Shown: positions 24,517 to 64,000 of the stretch, one piece after another | Position numbering within the stretch: the first letter of the stretch is position 1 | Layout of the letters: every line of letters starts with the position of its first letter | Source of the DNA: Caenorhabditis elegans | Taxonomy: Eukaryota > Nematoda > Chromadorea > Rhabditida > Rhabditidae | Assembly (NCBI RefSeq): GCF_000002985.6 | Contig: NC_003284.9 | Location: 806,001 to 870,000, forward strand | Length of the DNA: 64,000 bases | Direction of reading: 5' to 3' | Notes under the pieces: model-generated | The model's database searches: none | Seen by the model: the letters and a program-made list of their open reading frames with translations, nothing else | What the model was told of the DNA's origin: nothing | Translations under genes and position numbers: made by a program

Positions 24517-27498
24517 ATGTTTGAGAAAGTGAAAGAAGTCGCTCTTCCACAAGGTACAGTGTCTCCATGGCCATCAAATCTGGCTGTTTGCTGGTTGGAC
24601 ACTAGAAATATTACCTACGTGGCAGTCATCCAATCTAATAATGTAAGTTGTTTTGATGCTCAATGAGCACAATGTGCTAATCCTTTTTTGTTGCTATAGC
24701 TACTGATTAGAGTGTTAATAGTTAGTTATTCTTTAAGCTGTTGCTCATATCAATCAAAAATCTGTGAGGAACGTAAACAGATCCTTCTATCAGGTTTTGA
24801 ATGTTTCAGAATAATAGGGTATTCTGACGTACCTTAAAAATGTTTTTCGAAAAACTATAACTAACAGATTGTTTTCTGTTTTTGCTTAAACATAATTATG
24901 GTCTCAGAAGCCCAAATTAAATACTGAGAGAGCTTTTTGAAACGTTACGGATCACAGTTACTTGCTTGATAAAGTATGCTTGACTGGAAATCAGGAAAAA
25001 CTATTTGTAGTGAATCACTATTAAGTAAGGTACTCAGAAATGATAATCAAACAATAAGTTTAACATTATAACATAGCCATCTATTAGTACTTCACTTTAA
25101 ACACCTTTAAATTAGTATGCAATTTTTTCAAAGTTTTTTTGCCATAAGTTGATTGCTTTGAGATGATTTATGTGTATTCTTTAATTCGACATAACGAAAT
25201 AACCACTCAAATACTGTCTTAGAAGTTTAAGGCTTTTTTGAAAAAGAAAGTACAATGTGAGGGGGTACGGCAATTTTCACTCTTCACTATTTTTATTTTG
25301 GAAAAATACTGCAAAACGAAAAAAAAACCGTCATTAAATAATTTTCCGATAGTGTCGAGATCCGAGCACCAATTTTGCACCTCAGGTTACATATGTGAAC
25401 AATTATAATTTATAAATCTAGTCGCCTAAAAGTCAGGTTGAACATTCTTCAGAGGCCAATGGATTTGTTACAATATTGTAGGAGCAATTTAAAACTGAAA
25501 ATGTGAGATATGAAAATATTAATGCTGTACTTGTAATTCAGAAATAACATACTTTTCTTCACACTACATATTAGAACAAATCTCAGATTCACATCGGAAG
25601 TTGGGACAATAAAGCTGAGACAGAAGTAACTTGGGAAACAATCCAAACATCTGAGCCAGTTTCCATCACCGAGAAAATCATCGACGTCACTTCGGTATTA
25701 AATGAAAAATTTTCGCAGTGGTATTATTCAAGTTTTTAGGTCGGGCTAGTTCATCCAAACGCAAGAAACTTTCCAATAGTAATCGTAGGGTCAACTCGAT
25801 TTATTCATGTTTACGACGCCAAGAAAGTTACCCAAAAACCATTGTTCTCAATTGCGTTGGGTGTGGCGTTGAGAGACTACGTCCCCGCGGTTGGGAAAGA
25901 TGTAGGACCGTATTGTAGAGGTGTTACCTGTAACGATAATGCTGTATTGGTTGGTGAGTTTGGTGGAAACGCCGATGTCGCTTAAGGAAATACATACATT
26001 TAGGAACACATACCGGCGAGATTGTTGTCATCATGTGCAATGGGGACTCCAACTTCTCTAGTCGTAAAAACCTCAAGGTAAATGAGTTTTTTTAAAAACA
26101 CTGCTCGTTGTGTTCTGCTCTATTAGTAGATTTTTGTTAGTGGGGAGTACCGAAAACAGGCTCTCATGCGCAGTAAACTCAGTCAAGGTGTATAAAGCAG
26201 TAAATTTGCAGTCACTAAAAACGGAAAATTCTCATTTCACTGACAGAATTTTCATATTTTAAACATTCCTAACAATTTTATCGGTACATTTTCATGGAAG
26301 TAGTGAGAAATCAGTTGTGGAGAATCTCTTTGAAAAGAAAATGTATTCAAACTGTCTTCTTGCTTTGATCTATGGGAAAGTTGGGCCCCCACCCATTTCT
26401 TGGCTTCGTGCAAGAAACCCCTCCAATTTCAAATAATGTTTCAGGAACATCGTTGTGCCATCACGGACATAGCCACGTGTCGTTACGATGAAATAACTGT
26501 CAGTGCCGATTCGAACGGAGAACTGATCATATGGCAAAAACCCGTAAAAGGGGTGAACTCGAGAGTTATCACAAAGTAATATACTCTAAGTTTCTGACGT
26601 AAAATGTTTATTTTAGGCAGCACATCAACGTAATAAATGTGTTGAGAAAGCAGGTGATCGTGGGAACTTTGAGAGGAATTGTTCAGTATTATTCGGTAAC
26701 TACGGGAGATCTTATGTGTGAGGTAAGAATAGTTGAGGGGGAGGGAATCGGAACTTAACAGAAAATCAGGTGAAAAACTTTGGGATAGCTCAATCGGGAT
26801 TGATTAAACAATAAATTCACTTGTGGGTCATCCTCAAGGCAATTAAAAAAAATCGGTAATGGTGGCCGCTAGCAATCTGGAGGTCACAAGTTCGAGTCCG
26901 GACTCGCCCCGCTAGGTTCATCCAGCCTCTATTGGGAAGTGAAGTAATCCAAGACTATCAACCACAGTCTCCGGCTAGGACGTGGCCTAAATTGTAGCCC
27001 ATTGGGATTACCACCAGCCAGTGTACCTGACTCCCAGATATGCAGTGCATAGTGCTTGAAGAGCCCTTTATGGAAACATGACTGAAAACTCGGGCTTCTT
27101 CTCGATACTTTTTCTATTTTCATGCTTGTGAAAATGTTGCTTATAATAATTTCTCACAGATAAATGCTCATTCAAGACCAGTGAATAGTGTTTCTGTCGC
27201 ACCGGAAAGCGCATATGTCTTGACTTCTTCCGAGGATGGCACTTTTATCGTTTCGAAGCTTCACACAAGAAAACCACATGCTTATCAAGTTAGTTCACAG
27301 AAAGTCGAGAACATTTAGGTATACACAAAAACTCAATTTCAGGTTGAATACCGTTTCTCTGACAGCGATCCGTCCAACGTCATCATGGGAGCGCAATTCA
27401 CAAATGGACGCGGGAGTGCAATTGCAATTGCCGCATTTGATAGCAACGTCTTGGTGATGTACAAGATTATCAAGAAAACTGCTGTACCTGCTACATAA
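24517..27498 (+). CDS. WD40 protein, WDR54 homologue
   Basis: Eight exons give 347 residues: 24517-24642, 25587-25694, 25740-25953, 26004-26077, 26445-26575, 26617-26722, 27160-27288 and 27343-27498, all in frame. Human WDR54 is close in length (about 334) and shares the order of landmarks: an N-terminal NLAV...ARNITY-type segment, ITDIAT, ADSNGELIIW, TTGDLMCEINAHSRPV and SSEDGTFIV, ending in an AIAAFDSNVLV-type blade. The WD repeats suggest a single beta-propeller scaffold; the role of WDR54 is poorly defined. Intron 1 is long (944 bases) and intron 6 carries a tRNA-derived SINE. I see no spliced-leader acceptor next to the ATG. Confidence 0.85.
26862..27080 (+). mobile_element. tRNA-derived SINE-like element (copy 1)
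   Basis: This copy lies in intron 6 of the WDR54-like gene, in sense orientation. It starts inside a tRNA-like head (ggtaatggtggccgctagca, then B box aagttcgagtccgg) and continues through GGCTAGGACGTGGCC to TGCAGTGCATAGTGCTTGA. It aligns along most of its length with the complete copy at 62281-62540, with many substitutions. The A box is truncated, so this is probably an old, inactive copy. Confidence 0.75.
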
Positions 27499-59076: not shown

Positions 59077-62000
59077 CTATGACTTGTGCGTACTGCTCCA
59101 ACCGCGAAAGTTCAAATTCACCGTACTTCGCTGTAGTTCGGAGGATTTGATGAGGAATGCCACGTCACCATCACGTGATAAACAACTCGAGTTTAGTGCC
59201 ATTACGTCGATTGGCTGAAAAATTCTAGTTTAGAACGGAGAAAAGCAAAATTAGACATTGTGCAGGAAACTTAACCACTTCTCAGCGCCACCTATGCGTT
59301 GACCTTTCAGAATTTTCAGAAGGCAACACGTGCACACTTGGCGCGTGCTAGCGGCTGGCTTAAAAAACAACCAAAAACAAAAAAGAAATCCGTCGAACCG
59401 GATTCGAACCAGTGACCTAAGGATACCTGCTGACTCTACAGTCCTCCGCTCTACCAACTGAGCTATCGACGGCACGGAGGTGGACGGAAAAATGTGTCAA
59501 TAAAAATGTTTGTTGCTTGAAAGACTTTCAATGCGTCTAAGTGGCAGATACGTAGTTACAATCGTATAAAACGGTTCCTGGCGGGACCTTTCTGTCTTTA
59601 CTCACGTCTATAAACTTCCTCGACTCAAATGAAGAAGCTTTTTGAACAGAATGAACCCGTAGACTTCCATCGTTTGCTACCAAAACCACAAATGATTCGA
59701 AATTGTTGGAATCTGAATCTCAATTCATATTAAATGTTTTTTTTTCAAATTCAGGAAATCTCACTCTTTTTATTCAATATCCTAGCCACCATTCCATTTT
59801 TGATCTTCAGCCCTTCCAGCGCAGTGATCTTATAACTGTCGCGTTTCACCATCGGCTGACAATTATAGATTCGCAGCTGCTCCTCGGTGATGACGACGAT
59901 TCGAGTGGATGCGGAGAACTGAAATAACCAAATAAATTGAGTATGAATAATTTCACGGAGTTAACTGGGGATACGCTAATGCCGCGGAGTCGCGCACCGG
60001 GAAATTTGAAAAAAAAACACATGGGAGACACGAAAAATTCTAGAATTTTGACTACATTCGCATAAACTAAAAACTGGCAATTTTGCAACTCTTTTTCATT
60101 CACACTCCAAATCTCAACTTACATATCCTTCCTCATTTGTGATATCTAGATTAACAACCGGTTGCTTGTGAGGAATCGAGAGTTTCTTAATCTGTTCCGC
60201 TTTGAACGTCATTCTTAGTCCAACATCATGTTCGCTGATTGCGTAAAAGTAGACAGAGCCTTCGTGGAGCCCCACAGCTATAATGTCATCTACATTTTTG
60301 TCGTCGAGCACCGGAAAGCGCATCATTCGGAGACATGTTACGGTTCCTTTGGAATCTGGAAATATTGAAATTTCAGGGTGAGATAGGAATTGCTTTTGAT
60401 TTTTATTCAGAAGATTTGAAGATTTTGAAAAGCATGTGACCACGTTTAAGGCTTTTCACCTAATCTATGAGCACTTCAAAAAACCCCGTTTCAGATTTCC
60501 ACTTACTCTCAGCATAGCAATCCAGCACTCCCAGCTCTTCCCTTGCTTCAATTGGTCTCTCCATGAACACCTCTTCCTCTTCAAAATCGTCAATTCGCTT
60601 TGGACTTGTCTCATGCTGCACATGATTTGAAGATGAAGCCACTGCACCTCCTGAATCCATTAATGTTTCAGTGCCCTTCTTTTTTCGTCGGAACGTCTTT
60701 CGAAGTGACTTCTTGAGACTTTTGAATCGTTGGAATTGGTTGGCACTGACATTACTTGAATCATCTGAAATGAGCGTAGACTTCGAAGATGCTTTATGTT
60801 AAAGGCGGCCGAGCTTCATGGTTTTGAAAACTGGTGGTTTCGATAATTGCTAATTTTCAAAATTGTTAGCAATTTCCAATCATCCCGGGGTCAGACTCCC
60901 CAATCTACAAACTTTGTTCTTTCCAAATTATCTGAAAACTCACTGTTGTCATCATTGAATGAATTCGCATAGACAAGATATCCAAAGTTTACATCAAGCA
61001 TCACAATTCCAAAGTTACTTCCAACTGCCAAGCAGTGATACTTGTGAAGATAGACAATATCGGTGATTCGGTGGCTGGGATGCATTGAGAACACCAACGG
61101 TAGATCACTCTCGTTTTTAAGCCGTATTTGATAACCCGCATTGTACTTTAATTCTGCTTTCCTAGGCTTTAGCGCTCGTTTTCTCGTGTCTGGCGGAGAA
61201 TTATTGCAGCTGATCGGTGTGGCCTCCCAATGTGTGAGAGTTCTCGCAGAATCCCAAAGTTCATACATTAGTACATAGCCACCTCGATTCGTTCCAATCA
61301 CAATTCCAGATTTCGGATCAAAGTGCACACGGGTGATACACATTTCTTCGTCGTCATCAAACGGATCATAGAGGCCAATTTTGCGCACTGGTTTTTCAGG
61401 TTTCTCGTCGCTATTGTAGTAATTTGAATCTTCGTTCTAAAAGTTTACACACAATATTCACTGTTTCCTAAAATAGTTACTTACATCAAAACTAGATGCG
61501 CCGTCAAACTCCAATGAAGTGCGGATAACTAGCATCAAGGACATTCCAACTCCACCGGAAGACCATATACAAATATTTCCATTTGAATGACCACTCAAAT
61601 AAACTTGTCGGTAAGAAGCTCGTTGATGGTTCGCGTCGGTGACTATCTTCTTTTGAAAGTTCAACGGCCAGTCTCTGGTTGACATCTGGTTAGTCTCCCA
61701 ATAGGATTTGCTGGCCTGAAGAAAACATAATAAATGACTAAAATAACTATAAAAATTTAACAAGGATGCAAAATGTTTTTCAAGTCAAAAAGGTTTGCGC
61801 AACGTAAAAATTGTCGAATTTCAAGTTCAGAATTTTCTACAGTAGCAGCAGGTAGTTTTTCATTGTTGTATAGAAGTTTTTTTGTGGAGACATACTGAAC
61901 AATATTATCACTTTCTGAATATTACTTTAGTCTTAATTGAAAGTTTTGAGAAGGTGCTCAAAAACTGACTCAAAAAGCCAATTTGCCGGTTGGCACAGTT

Positions 62001-64000
62001 ACGCGGCACACTGCGACTCCTAGGCAGTTTTCGAACATTTTCTACATACGTGCATTTGAAGTTAAATTTTTTTAGAAAGTATAAATATTTCTCTATGTTT
62101 CTATATAAACTTGCAAATAAAAAATTTAGCACTACCATGACGAATTTTAGCACTACTATGAGAAATTACCCTTTCCAAAAGTTAAAAAAGAAAAACAAAA
62201 CCTAACCGATTCCAGACGATTCCATACATTTTCCTCAATTTCAATAGCTCTCGAGTGGGTAGTTGGCGTACTATTATTAAAAAGGATTAAAGGATTAAAG
62301 GACGATCCGTTCTTCAAGTGCTATGCACTGCGGATCTGGGATTCAGGTACACTGCCTGGTGGTGATCCCTCTGGGCTGTAATTTAAGTCACGTCCTAGCC
62401 GGGGACTGTGGCCGATAATCCAGTCGTGGATTGCTCCACTTCCCAATAGAGGCTGGGTGAACCTAGGGGGTGAGGCCGGACTTGAACTCGTGACCTCCAG
62501 ACTGCTAGCGGCCACCACTACCGACTGAGCTATCTGCCCTACTATGAGAAATTACCCTTTCCAAAAGTTAAAAAAGAAAAACAAAACCTAACCGATTCAA
62601 GACGATTCCATACATTTTCCTCAATTTCAATAGCTCTCGAGTGGGTAGTTGGCGTACTATTATTAATCGAAAGAAAATGTTTCGGCTGCATCATATTCAA
62701 CGACTCCCTTTCCAAATCGATTCCAATGATCTCGCATTTTGTGCATATTAATACCACTCCACTTTTCTTGCAATCTTCTGGAACATATTCAAAATTAGGA
62801 AAAAAATAGTTCGAATAATTTTCAGTACCGTAACTACCACTGACACCAACAATCCCTACAATTTCCGATGAGAGCTCCAGTTTTTCAACAAAGTCGCCAT
62901 GGCTAATTGTGATCAGATCTCTATCGTCGTACTTTCCAGAACTTTTGCCTCCTTGGTAGATGAGGAAGTTCTCGTTAGGATCCCTGAAATGAGGCAAATA
63001 ATTATAGTAAATCCAAGCAGAGAAACTCCGAGAAGGCGATTTGTATGAAATTGACTTTATGAAAATGAGTTTTTATTTTTATTTTTGAAACAAAACCTTT
63101 ATTTTGAAAACTTTAAACGAAAACTTACGACGCATCAGCACAAACAGAGAAATGTCGAATTTGATGGCAAGGATAGGGTCCAAATTGATTCGCACTGTAG
63201 ACATTCACTTCTTGAGCACTTATCTGACAGTCTTTTCCAACTGTAAACTCCCATTTTGTGTATTTATTATTGCAAGAAATGCCAAAAGCTACATTTTTCT
63301 TCTTCTCGCTACTCCAGTGAAGTTTCTGTAGAGAACACATTTAAAAAAAGAAAAAAAAAGTTTCAACACACCTGTATAGCTTCATCCTCATAGTTCCGTA
63401 GACTGGTCTTCATGACAAACTGTGATTCGTTAAATACGCCAACACAACCGTTTTCCGCAATGAGCATCAAAATTGATGGCTTTTCCGGTAAGCAGGTTAT
63501 ACTGGCGAGCTCTGTGTCGTCAGGCAGCCATTTTTCAAAATCTTCAGCTTTGACGAGAACTTCTGATTTGAGGGTTTTGGATTTGATTCGGTATATTGTG
63601 TTATTCATGGCTGTAAAAATTGAAACTTTTTGGACTTACAAGCTATCAAAACCATAAATGCTTTCTGTTTTGCTCACGTCATAATGAAGCTTGATTGAAA
63701 ATAAATTCCTGTTACGGTAAACCTAGTTTCCAGTTTTTCAATATTTTTTCACACTTATTTCGGAGTCAATTTGATAAAGTTGAAAAGAAAGTTTGGTTTG
63801 ACTGAAATGCCATATTGCTGTAAATCTTACCATTTTCAATTTTTAATTGTTTTTTTTTCTCTGGGAAGACTTTTACGCTTTAGTTTGAAAATTAATTTGC
63901 ACAACTATATCAACATCGTGCAATTTTTTTGAAACTAAGTTTCAATGAAAAACTTACAAAAAACTAGGGCAAATGTGTCATCTGATAACTTTTGGACATG
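59077..64000 (-). CDS. lgl-1: Lethal giant larvae homologue LGL-1 (5' end outside window)
   Basis: Eleven exons are visible, about 825 residues: 64000-63958 (partial), 63610-63372, 63325-63130, 62983-62593, 61715-61485, 61436-60944, 60764-60507, 60355-60123, 59918-59765, 59712-59606 and 59214-59077. LGL is a cortical two-propeller WD40 scaffold that opposes aPKC/PAR-6 in cell polarity. Diagnostic features: the Lgl-2 segment FLIYQGGKSSGKYDDRDL; the hinge FQRFKSLKKSLRKTFRRKKK, which carries the aPKC phosphorylation sites and basic membrane-binding patch; VITEEQLRIYN followed by ITALEG; and the C-terminal blade ending FRGWSSTHKS. The third phospho-site is Thr (RKTFRR) where fly Lgl has Ser. MNNTIYRIK at 63608 is internal: the frame continues into the upstream exon. 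The intron 62592-61716 holds a SINE and a partial exon duplicate; the last intron holds tRNA-Tyr. Confidence 0.95.
59390..59472 (-). tRNA. tRNA-Tyr (GTA) with intron
   Basis: The minus strand reads CCGTCGA ... TCGACGG, giving a perfect 7-bp acceptor stem. The A box TAGCTCAGTTGG and B box GGTTCGAATCC are intact. The anticodon arm is GGA-CTGTAGA-TCC (anticodon GTA) with an 11-base intron (AGTCAGCAGGT) one base 3' of the anticodon, the usual place in tRNA-Tyr. It lies in the last intron of lgl-1 on the same strand. No T-run is prominent directly downstream except TTTCTTTTTTGTTTTTGG just after the gene, a plausible Pol III terminator. Confidence 0.97.
62155..62280. repeat. 126-bp direct repeat, copy A (lgl-1 exon-end duplicate)
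   Basis: Identical to 62541-62666 except one base (C at about 62212). On the minus strand it contains the last 74 bases of the lgl-1 exon ending at 62593, the GTTAGG donor and 52 bases of intron. It lies on the far side of the SINE, inside the intron. Confidence 0.95.
62281..62540 (-). mobile_element. tRNA-derived SINE (copy 2, complete)
   Basis: On the minus strand the 260-bp element begins AGGGCAGATAGCTCAGTCGG, an intact Pol III A box, and has the B box GAGTTCAAGTCC about 50 bases on. A body shared with 26862-27080 follows (GGCTAGGACGTGACTTAAAT, CAGTGTACCTGAATCCCAGA), ending in a CTTTAAT-repeat tail. It is in lgl-1 sense orientation. The tRNA-like head, body and simple tail are the classic SINE layout; there is no coding capacity. 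Confidence 0.85.
62541..62666. repeat. 126-bp direct repeat, copy B (genuine exon end)
   Basis: Overlaps the 3' end of the functional lgl-1 exon (62593-62983), its donor and the first 52 intron bases. It is the partner of copy A and directly abuts the 5' end of the SINE. Confidence 0.95.

Follow-up and report, generated by a model that had tools for sequence, protein, structure and literature searches.

A 127-bp target site duplication around a tRNA-derived SINE in a predicted LGL-family gene of Caenorhabditis elegans, and the recurrence of long duplications in the SINE family

Results

The window, by which we mean the whole 64,000-nucleotide stretch of C. elegans DNA analyzed here, contains on its minus strand a gene that its sequence places in the LGL (lethal giant larvae) family and that we take to be lgl-1. 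The exon of concern is predicted to span 62593-62983 (minus strand, both ends read from the sequence), with the next exon starting from about 61715. This host exon scores 26.1 bits with the Pfam family LLGL2 (PF08366; cut-off 22). A later exon matches LLGL2 chains in the PDB with an E value of 3.5e-4; three of the four exon frames submitted to Pfam gave no match above the cut-off. A tRNA gene, to which ARAGORN assigned a four-base anticodon, lies near the LGL gene (59389-59472, minus strand).

By comparing the window sequence with itself, we found that the end of the host exon and the start of its intron are present twice, on either side of a 259-bp tRNA-derived SINE (62281-62539, minus strand) that shares the orientation of the host gene. 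The 5' copy of the target site duplication (TSD), copy B (62540-62666, minus strand), joins on to the upstream exon, and the 3' copy, copy A (62154-62280, minus strand), joins on to the rest of the intron. The two direct repeats are 127 bp each and agree at 126 of 127 positions; the length becomes 128 bp if one extra matching base, which may be the element's own, is included. An earlier note on this DNA had described 126-bp repeats with a single mismatch around a complete tRNA-derived element. The long repeats are real, although their length was off by one, and both the sole mismatch (C at 62213, A at 62599) and the complete element were borne out. In the frame read, this mismatch is silent, giving CTT or CTG, both leucine; on one difference per 127 bp, calling the event recent is fair but rough. 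Each repeat consists of 74 exon bases and 53 intron bases, the latter starting with the donor GTTAGG; the 74 exon bases and this donor are as the earlier note gave them. There is no spare base between the SINE and either repeat (offsets 0 and 0), and the net gain at the locus is 386 bp. Because the anchored match here scored 124, whereas 400 mismatched-flank trials reached at most 12, a repeat of 127 bp is far above chance. Directly adjoining copy A is an imperfect 21-base tandem repeat (62122-62163).

Both copies carry a splice donor: donor B is the GT of GTTAGG at 62591-62592 and donor A, its duplicate, lies at 62205-62206 (both minus strand). Judged from the sequence, the original donor B, which comes first in the transcript and is the one predicted to be in use, most likely keeps working and is most likely joined to an acceptor near 61716, with about 877 bp spliced out. 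Reading through donor B leads to a stop in the intron part of copy B, just before the SINE (frame 63072-62545), so that a functional protein most likely needs donor B. Use of donor A could retain the SINE in the mRNA. The proposal that the intron now holds a decoy exon is right in that the donor is duplicated, but the decoy is weaker than had been stated, given the stop past donor B and the lack, by eye, of a clear acceptor for copy A.

The SINE starts with GGGCAGATAGCTCAG and ends in CCTTTAAT repeats. Internal pol III promoters have the A-box consensus TRGCNNAGYNGG and the B-box consensus GGTTCGANYCC; by direct reading, the A-box-like TAGCTCAGTCGG at 62521-62532 fits the former, and the B-box-like AGTTCAAGTCC at 62478-62488 shows two differences from the latter (both minus strand). 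Neither ARAGORN nor Rfam at its gathering threshold called a tRNA inside the SINE. Its 3' tail of CCTTTAAT-type repeats (62281-62300, minus strand) overlaps in sequence with TTAAT, the start of the TSD, and is preceded by TGAAGAACGGATCGTC (62301-62316, minus strand), 16 bases that an RTE-like LINE carries unchanged at its 3' end.

In the genome searched (100,286,401 bases, 7 contigs), the SINE head matched 121 places with at most two mismatches, against 0 for the reversed control, and 22 of its 70 exact matches fell on contig C6, which makes up 17.7% of the bases. Forty scored matches, out of 369 candidates, were 97-100% identical to the SINE. We read 91 sequences (90 loci and an older window copy), many of them overlapping, which came down to 71 distinct copies; L074, being without the element body, was excluded from the copy set. 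The older window copy (26853-27062) is truncated and 85% identical, and we detected no duplication around it.

The SINE is likely CELE45, and possibly SINE1 instead; the available text of PMC6873666 lists these two as the only SINEs of the reference genome. According to the accessible part of PMC8457455, CELE45 has 583 annotated copies with two dense clusters on X, and its active copies are bound by pol III; the pol III transcription reported there would apply to our element if it is CELE45. Retrotransposition is described as never observed in the laboratory in the available portions of PMC6873666 and of a second paper, and the latter ranks CELE45 with the retrotransposons that have the most insertions in wild strains.

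It had also been asked whether the repeated bases belong to the element. For the comparison of flanks and of short matches we kept 65 of the 71 copies, excluding WIN2 and matches starting after base 2. Among these 65 loci, 140-nt flank slices of the window locus matched only each other (E up to 1e-10). None of the other copies examined has the 127 bases, which are therefore a TSD and not element sequence. That they form part of a longer mobile unit is scarcely conceivable: no similar flanks occur at the other 64 loci compared, the bases sit in an exon of what is predicted to be an LGL-family gene, and we found nothing in favor of such a unit.

Long duplications recur at other sites. In our strict TSD test, a match had to lie at most 6 bases from the 5' end of the element and at most 60 from its 3' end, and a null of 400 mismatched pairs gave a maximum score of 12. 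The test covered 69 copies, the window copy included, and left out L054 and L080, which have more than one match piece. Nine of the 69 copies had a TSD above the null, with match lengths of 192, 154, 149, 127, 84, 76, 51, 29, and 28 bp; the 29-bp match, at L004, includes tail sequence, and by eye the target repeat there is 17-20 bases. The window copy's layout is thus seen in eight further copies, at other sites and with other lengths. This speaks against a history in which a 127-bp tandem duplication came first and the SINE later landed exactly at its junction, as does the fit of the SINE between the repeats without a spare base. Tandem duplications of this size do occur and our analysis covers one allele of this locus, but we regard such an order of events as very unlikely.

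In a relaxed search of 69 copies, for which 250 mismatched pairs set a null maximum of 14, L005 showed a 265-bp duplication with 97.7% identity. Because L005 lies in a tandem array, whose variant units are ordered alike on the two sides, we count it as a likely TSD and no more firmly. Matches at L029 (34 bp at a distance of 79 nt), L086 (20 bp at 23 nt), L060 (25 bp at 10 nt, by eye within a palindromic repeat), and L015 (15 bp) also exceeded this null; among all these extras, L005 alone was used.

The strict test found no TSD in the other 60 of 69 copies, L010 and L015 merely equaling the null maximum. These copies may have lost target bases, been joined bluntly, or been rearranged, or their duplication may lie outside the 1.4 kb searched. 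We rejected the idea that short TSDs had been overlooked in them: among the 56 intact copies outside the nine, exact short matches came close to the expected counts (8 observed and 5.3 expected at length 5; 6 and 2.6 at length 6), with possibly a slight excess of 5- to 6-base matches.

Two junctions are more complex. At L004, a 17-base target sequence is present three times, flanking and interleaved with SINE parts: a scrap of the SINE tail, TAATCCTTT, lies between target copies 1 and 2, and the full SINE lies between the last two. The pattern could have come from two separate insertions into this site or from a first attempt that was aborted. At L005, the duplication and the element are separated by 35 filler bases and 18 additional Gs. 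Capture of SINE cDNA during staggered or replication-linked break repair with template switching, without the LINE endonuclease, would suit both junctions as well as the absence of a TSD from most copies by the strict test. The window copy, however, has clean junctions, an overlap of tail and target, and a T-run upstream of the nick, and we judge such a capture improbable.

A SINE and the LINE that mobilizes it commonly have a 3' end in common, as stated in the available text of PMC3747384. Positions 224-239 of our SINE are identical to an RTE-like LINE at 16 of 16 bases (E 2e-4), and in both elements the shared bases directly precede the terminal repeats: the LINE ends in TGAAGAACGGATCGTC followed by TAAGTATC-type repeats, and the SINE in the same 16 bases followed by CTTTAATC-type repeats. 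The terminal repeats of the LINE are TAAGTATC-like, unlike CCTTTAAT. The LINE-specific form of this 3' end occurs 37 times in the genome at up to three mismatches. A genome search for reverse transcriptase (RT; RVT_1) gave 151 matches; among the 150 listed, an RT place lies 577-659 bp upstream on the same strand of 23 of the 37 LINE 3' ends, against 0 of 37 in the opposite-strand control. The other 14 have none of the 150 listed RT places upstream, which counts against insertion of the SINE by this LINE, as does one LINE copy, its 5' boundary not fixed, that has no TSD adjoining its tail within about 1 kb.

We read one LINE copy at its ends; it holds a 1023-aa open frame, which fits RTE-1 by size. 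Two partial LINE pieces gave no Pfam match. From the frame length, the 3' structure, and a protein that presumably resembles that of RTE, the partner would belong to the RTE clade. Reportedly, RTE-1 insertions were the subject of a report in 1996; in the literature searched, with its partial coverage, we found no publication pairing this SINE with RTE-1. A hunt for the partner by tail alone was discarded: it returned 33 CCTTTAATCCTTTAATCC places, one of them with a listed RT at most 4 kb upstream on the same strand. That single place, at C5:3.16 Mb, was rejected as the partner, since what lies there is a SINE copy into which another element has been inserted. L074 and L091 (C5:3,159,300-3,165,390) show a SINE copy interrupted by an element of about 4 kb, which has inverted ends near TACACAGTTAAATCGCG and an RT-containing reading frame inside.

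In the window copy, the presumed nick falls within the exon at CGA/TTAAT, with a T-run upstream. Across the nine sites with a strict TSD (the start at L004 set by hand, p values uncorrected for several tests), TTTT stands 5-14 nt upstream of the TSD in five, against a background of 13.7% (p 0.004), and T is the first TSD base in six, against 32% (p 0.04); for TTT in the same interval the signal is weak (5 of 9 against 29%, p 0.09). According to the available text of PMC13295347, insertions of RTE-clade LINEs and SINEs have a run of Ts some 10 nt upstream, and T is the first TSD base for SINEs ending in T-rich repeats. With nine sites, the agreement with the RTE-clade pattern is suggestive.

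The G-run 5' of the SINE, sought on the SINE strand only, is bimodal, with 5-6 Gs in 37 of 65 copies and 13-21 Gs in 12 of 65; copies with a G-run include L005, L013, L018, L025, L032, L078, L088, and L089. Possibly the RT adds Cs, the run arises by slippage, or the SINE lands at G tracts. Genome-wide, 17 SINE heads are preceded by a run of about 12 Gs (at most two mismatches), against 729 runs of at least 16 Gs (for such a pattern a backward control is uninformative), and we therefore rejected SINEs as the chief origin of the poly-G tracts of the genome. The words "repeat," "transpos," and "SINE" are absent from the main text of a paper on poly-G, PMC2211496.

Discussion

We consider it highly probable that the SINE owes its place here to target-primed reverse transcription (TPRT) by the machinery of an RTE-like LINE, with a wide and variable second-strand cut. 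According to this reading, in which the LINE protein is the presumed agent, the first nick would have opened the exon at CGA/TTAAT and the exposed end could have paired with the tail of (CCTTTAAT)n. The cut in the second strand, presumably the later of the two, would lie 127 bp downstream of the nick as the gene is read, and fill-in of the wide stagger would have duplicated the exon end, the donor, and the intron start. Wide and variable staggers would arise repeatedly in this SINE family. The marks of TPRT comprise a full-length element, a 3' end shared with the LINE, the overlap of tail and target, and the T-run upstream of the nick. The long TSDs in 9 of 69 copies at unrelated sites, together with L005, count for TPRT by the LINE, as do the 23 of 37 LINE 3' ends that have an RT place upstream; the 60 copies that are TSD-free by the strict test and the absence of a clear excess of short TSDs count against it.

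A second cut at a distance of 127 bp, followed by fill-in, is all that this locus requires. The wide staggered break suggested in the earlier note is thus supported as a part of ordinary retrotransposition, unusual in its width. An origin outside standard retrotransposition, also suggested there, found no support, as long TSDs recur at unrelated sites and the marks of TPRT are present. The feature is real and was correctly described, and its cause is most likely ordinary.

R9 of rotifers is an R2-type element. This non-LTR element resembles the locus described here in its wide stagger, which gives a 126-bp duplication according to the available part of PMC6895275; by the title of its reference R9 is specific to rDNA, whereas sites and lengths vary in our family. 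For human L1 in cultured cells, the accessible text of PMC2912911 describes extremely long TSDs or target deletions with a wide and variable second cut, and that of PMC1291365 has L1 TSDs ranging in length from several to several hundred nucleotides. The long TSDs of human L1 are linked to 5'-truncated copies, while the elements here are full length. RTE-1 of C. elegans and its clade, with the Bov-B / Sauria SINE pairs, are also comparable: there, as here, the 3' UTR of the LINE is short and followed by terminal repeats, a SINE has the 3' end in common with it, and a T stretch lies upstream of the nick. The TSDs of RTE elements measure 10-20 bp in the published text available, whereas our copies have either long TSDs or none that we could see.

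According to the available portions of PMC2881922 and PMC6895275, whether TPRT ends in duplication, blunt join, or deletion depends on where the second strand is cut, and the former calls it an open question how the LINE machinery picks this position. We tentatively raise the possibility, which we hold to be somewhat less probable than its opposite, that the SINE and the RTE-like LINE integrate without a preferred stagger. The distance of the second cut might then range from tens to hundreds of bases, to either side of the first, so that about one insertion in 7-8 would have a long duplication and most others a deletion or blunt join, with no class of 10-20 bp.

The recurrence of long and variable duplications in one SINE family is the interesting part. 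The choice of the second cut becomes testable in a laboratory animal of which many wild strains are sequenced and in which hundreds of copies of one family occur, with duplications of about 17 to 265 bp. The locus in the LGL-family gene shows a single jump duplicating an exon end and a splice site, with the frame to the original donor left intact. If integration without a preferred stagger holds true, its long duplications would be a way for exon ends, splice sites, and other functional sequence to be copied.
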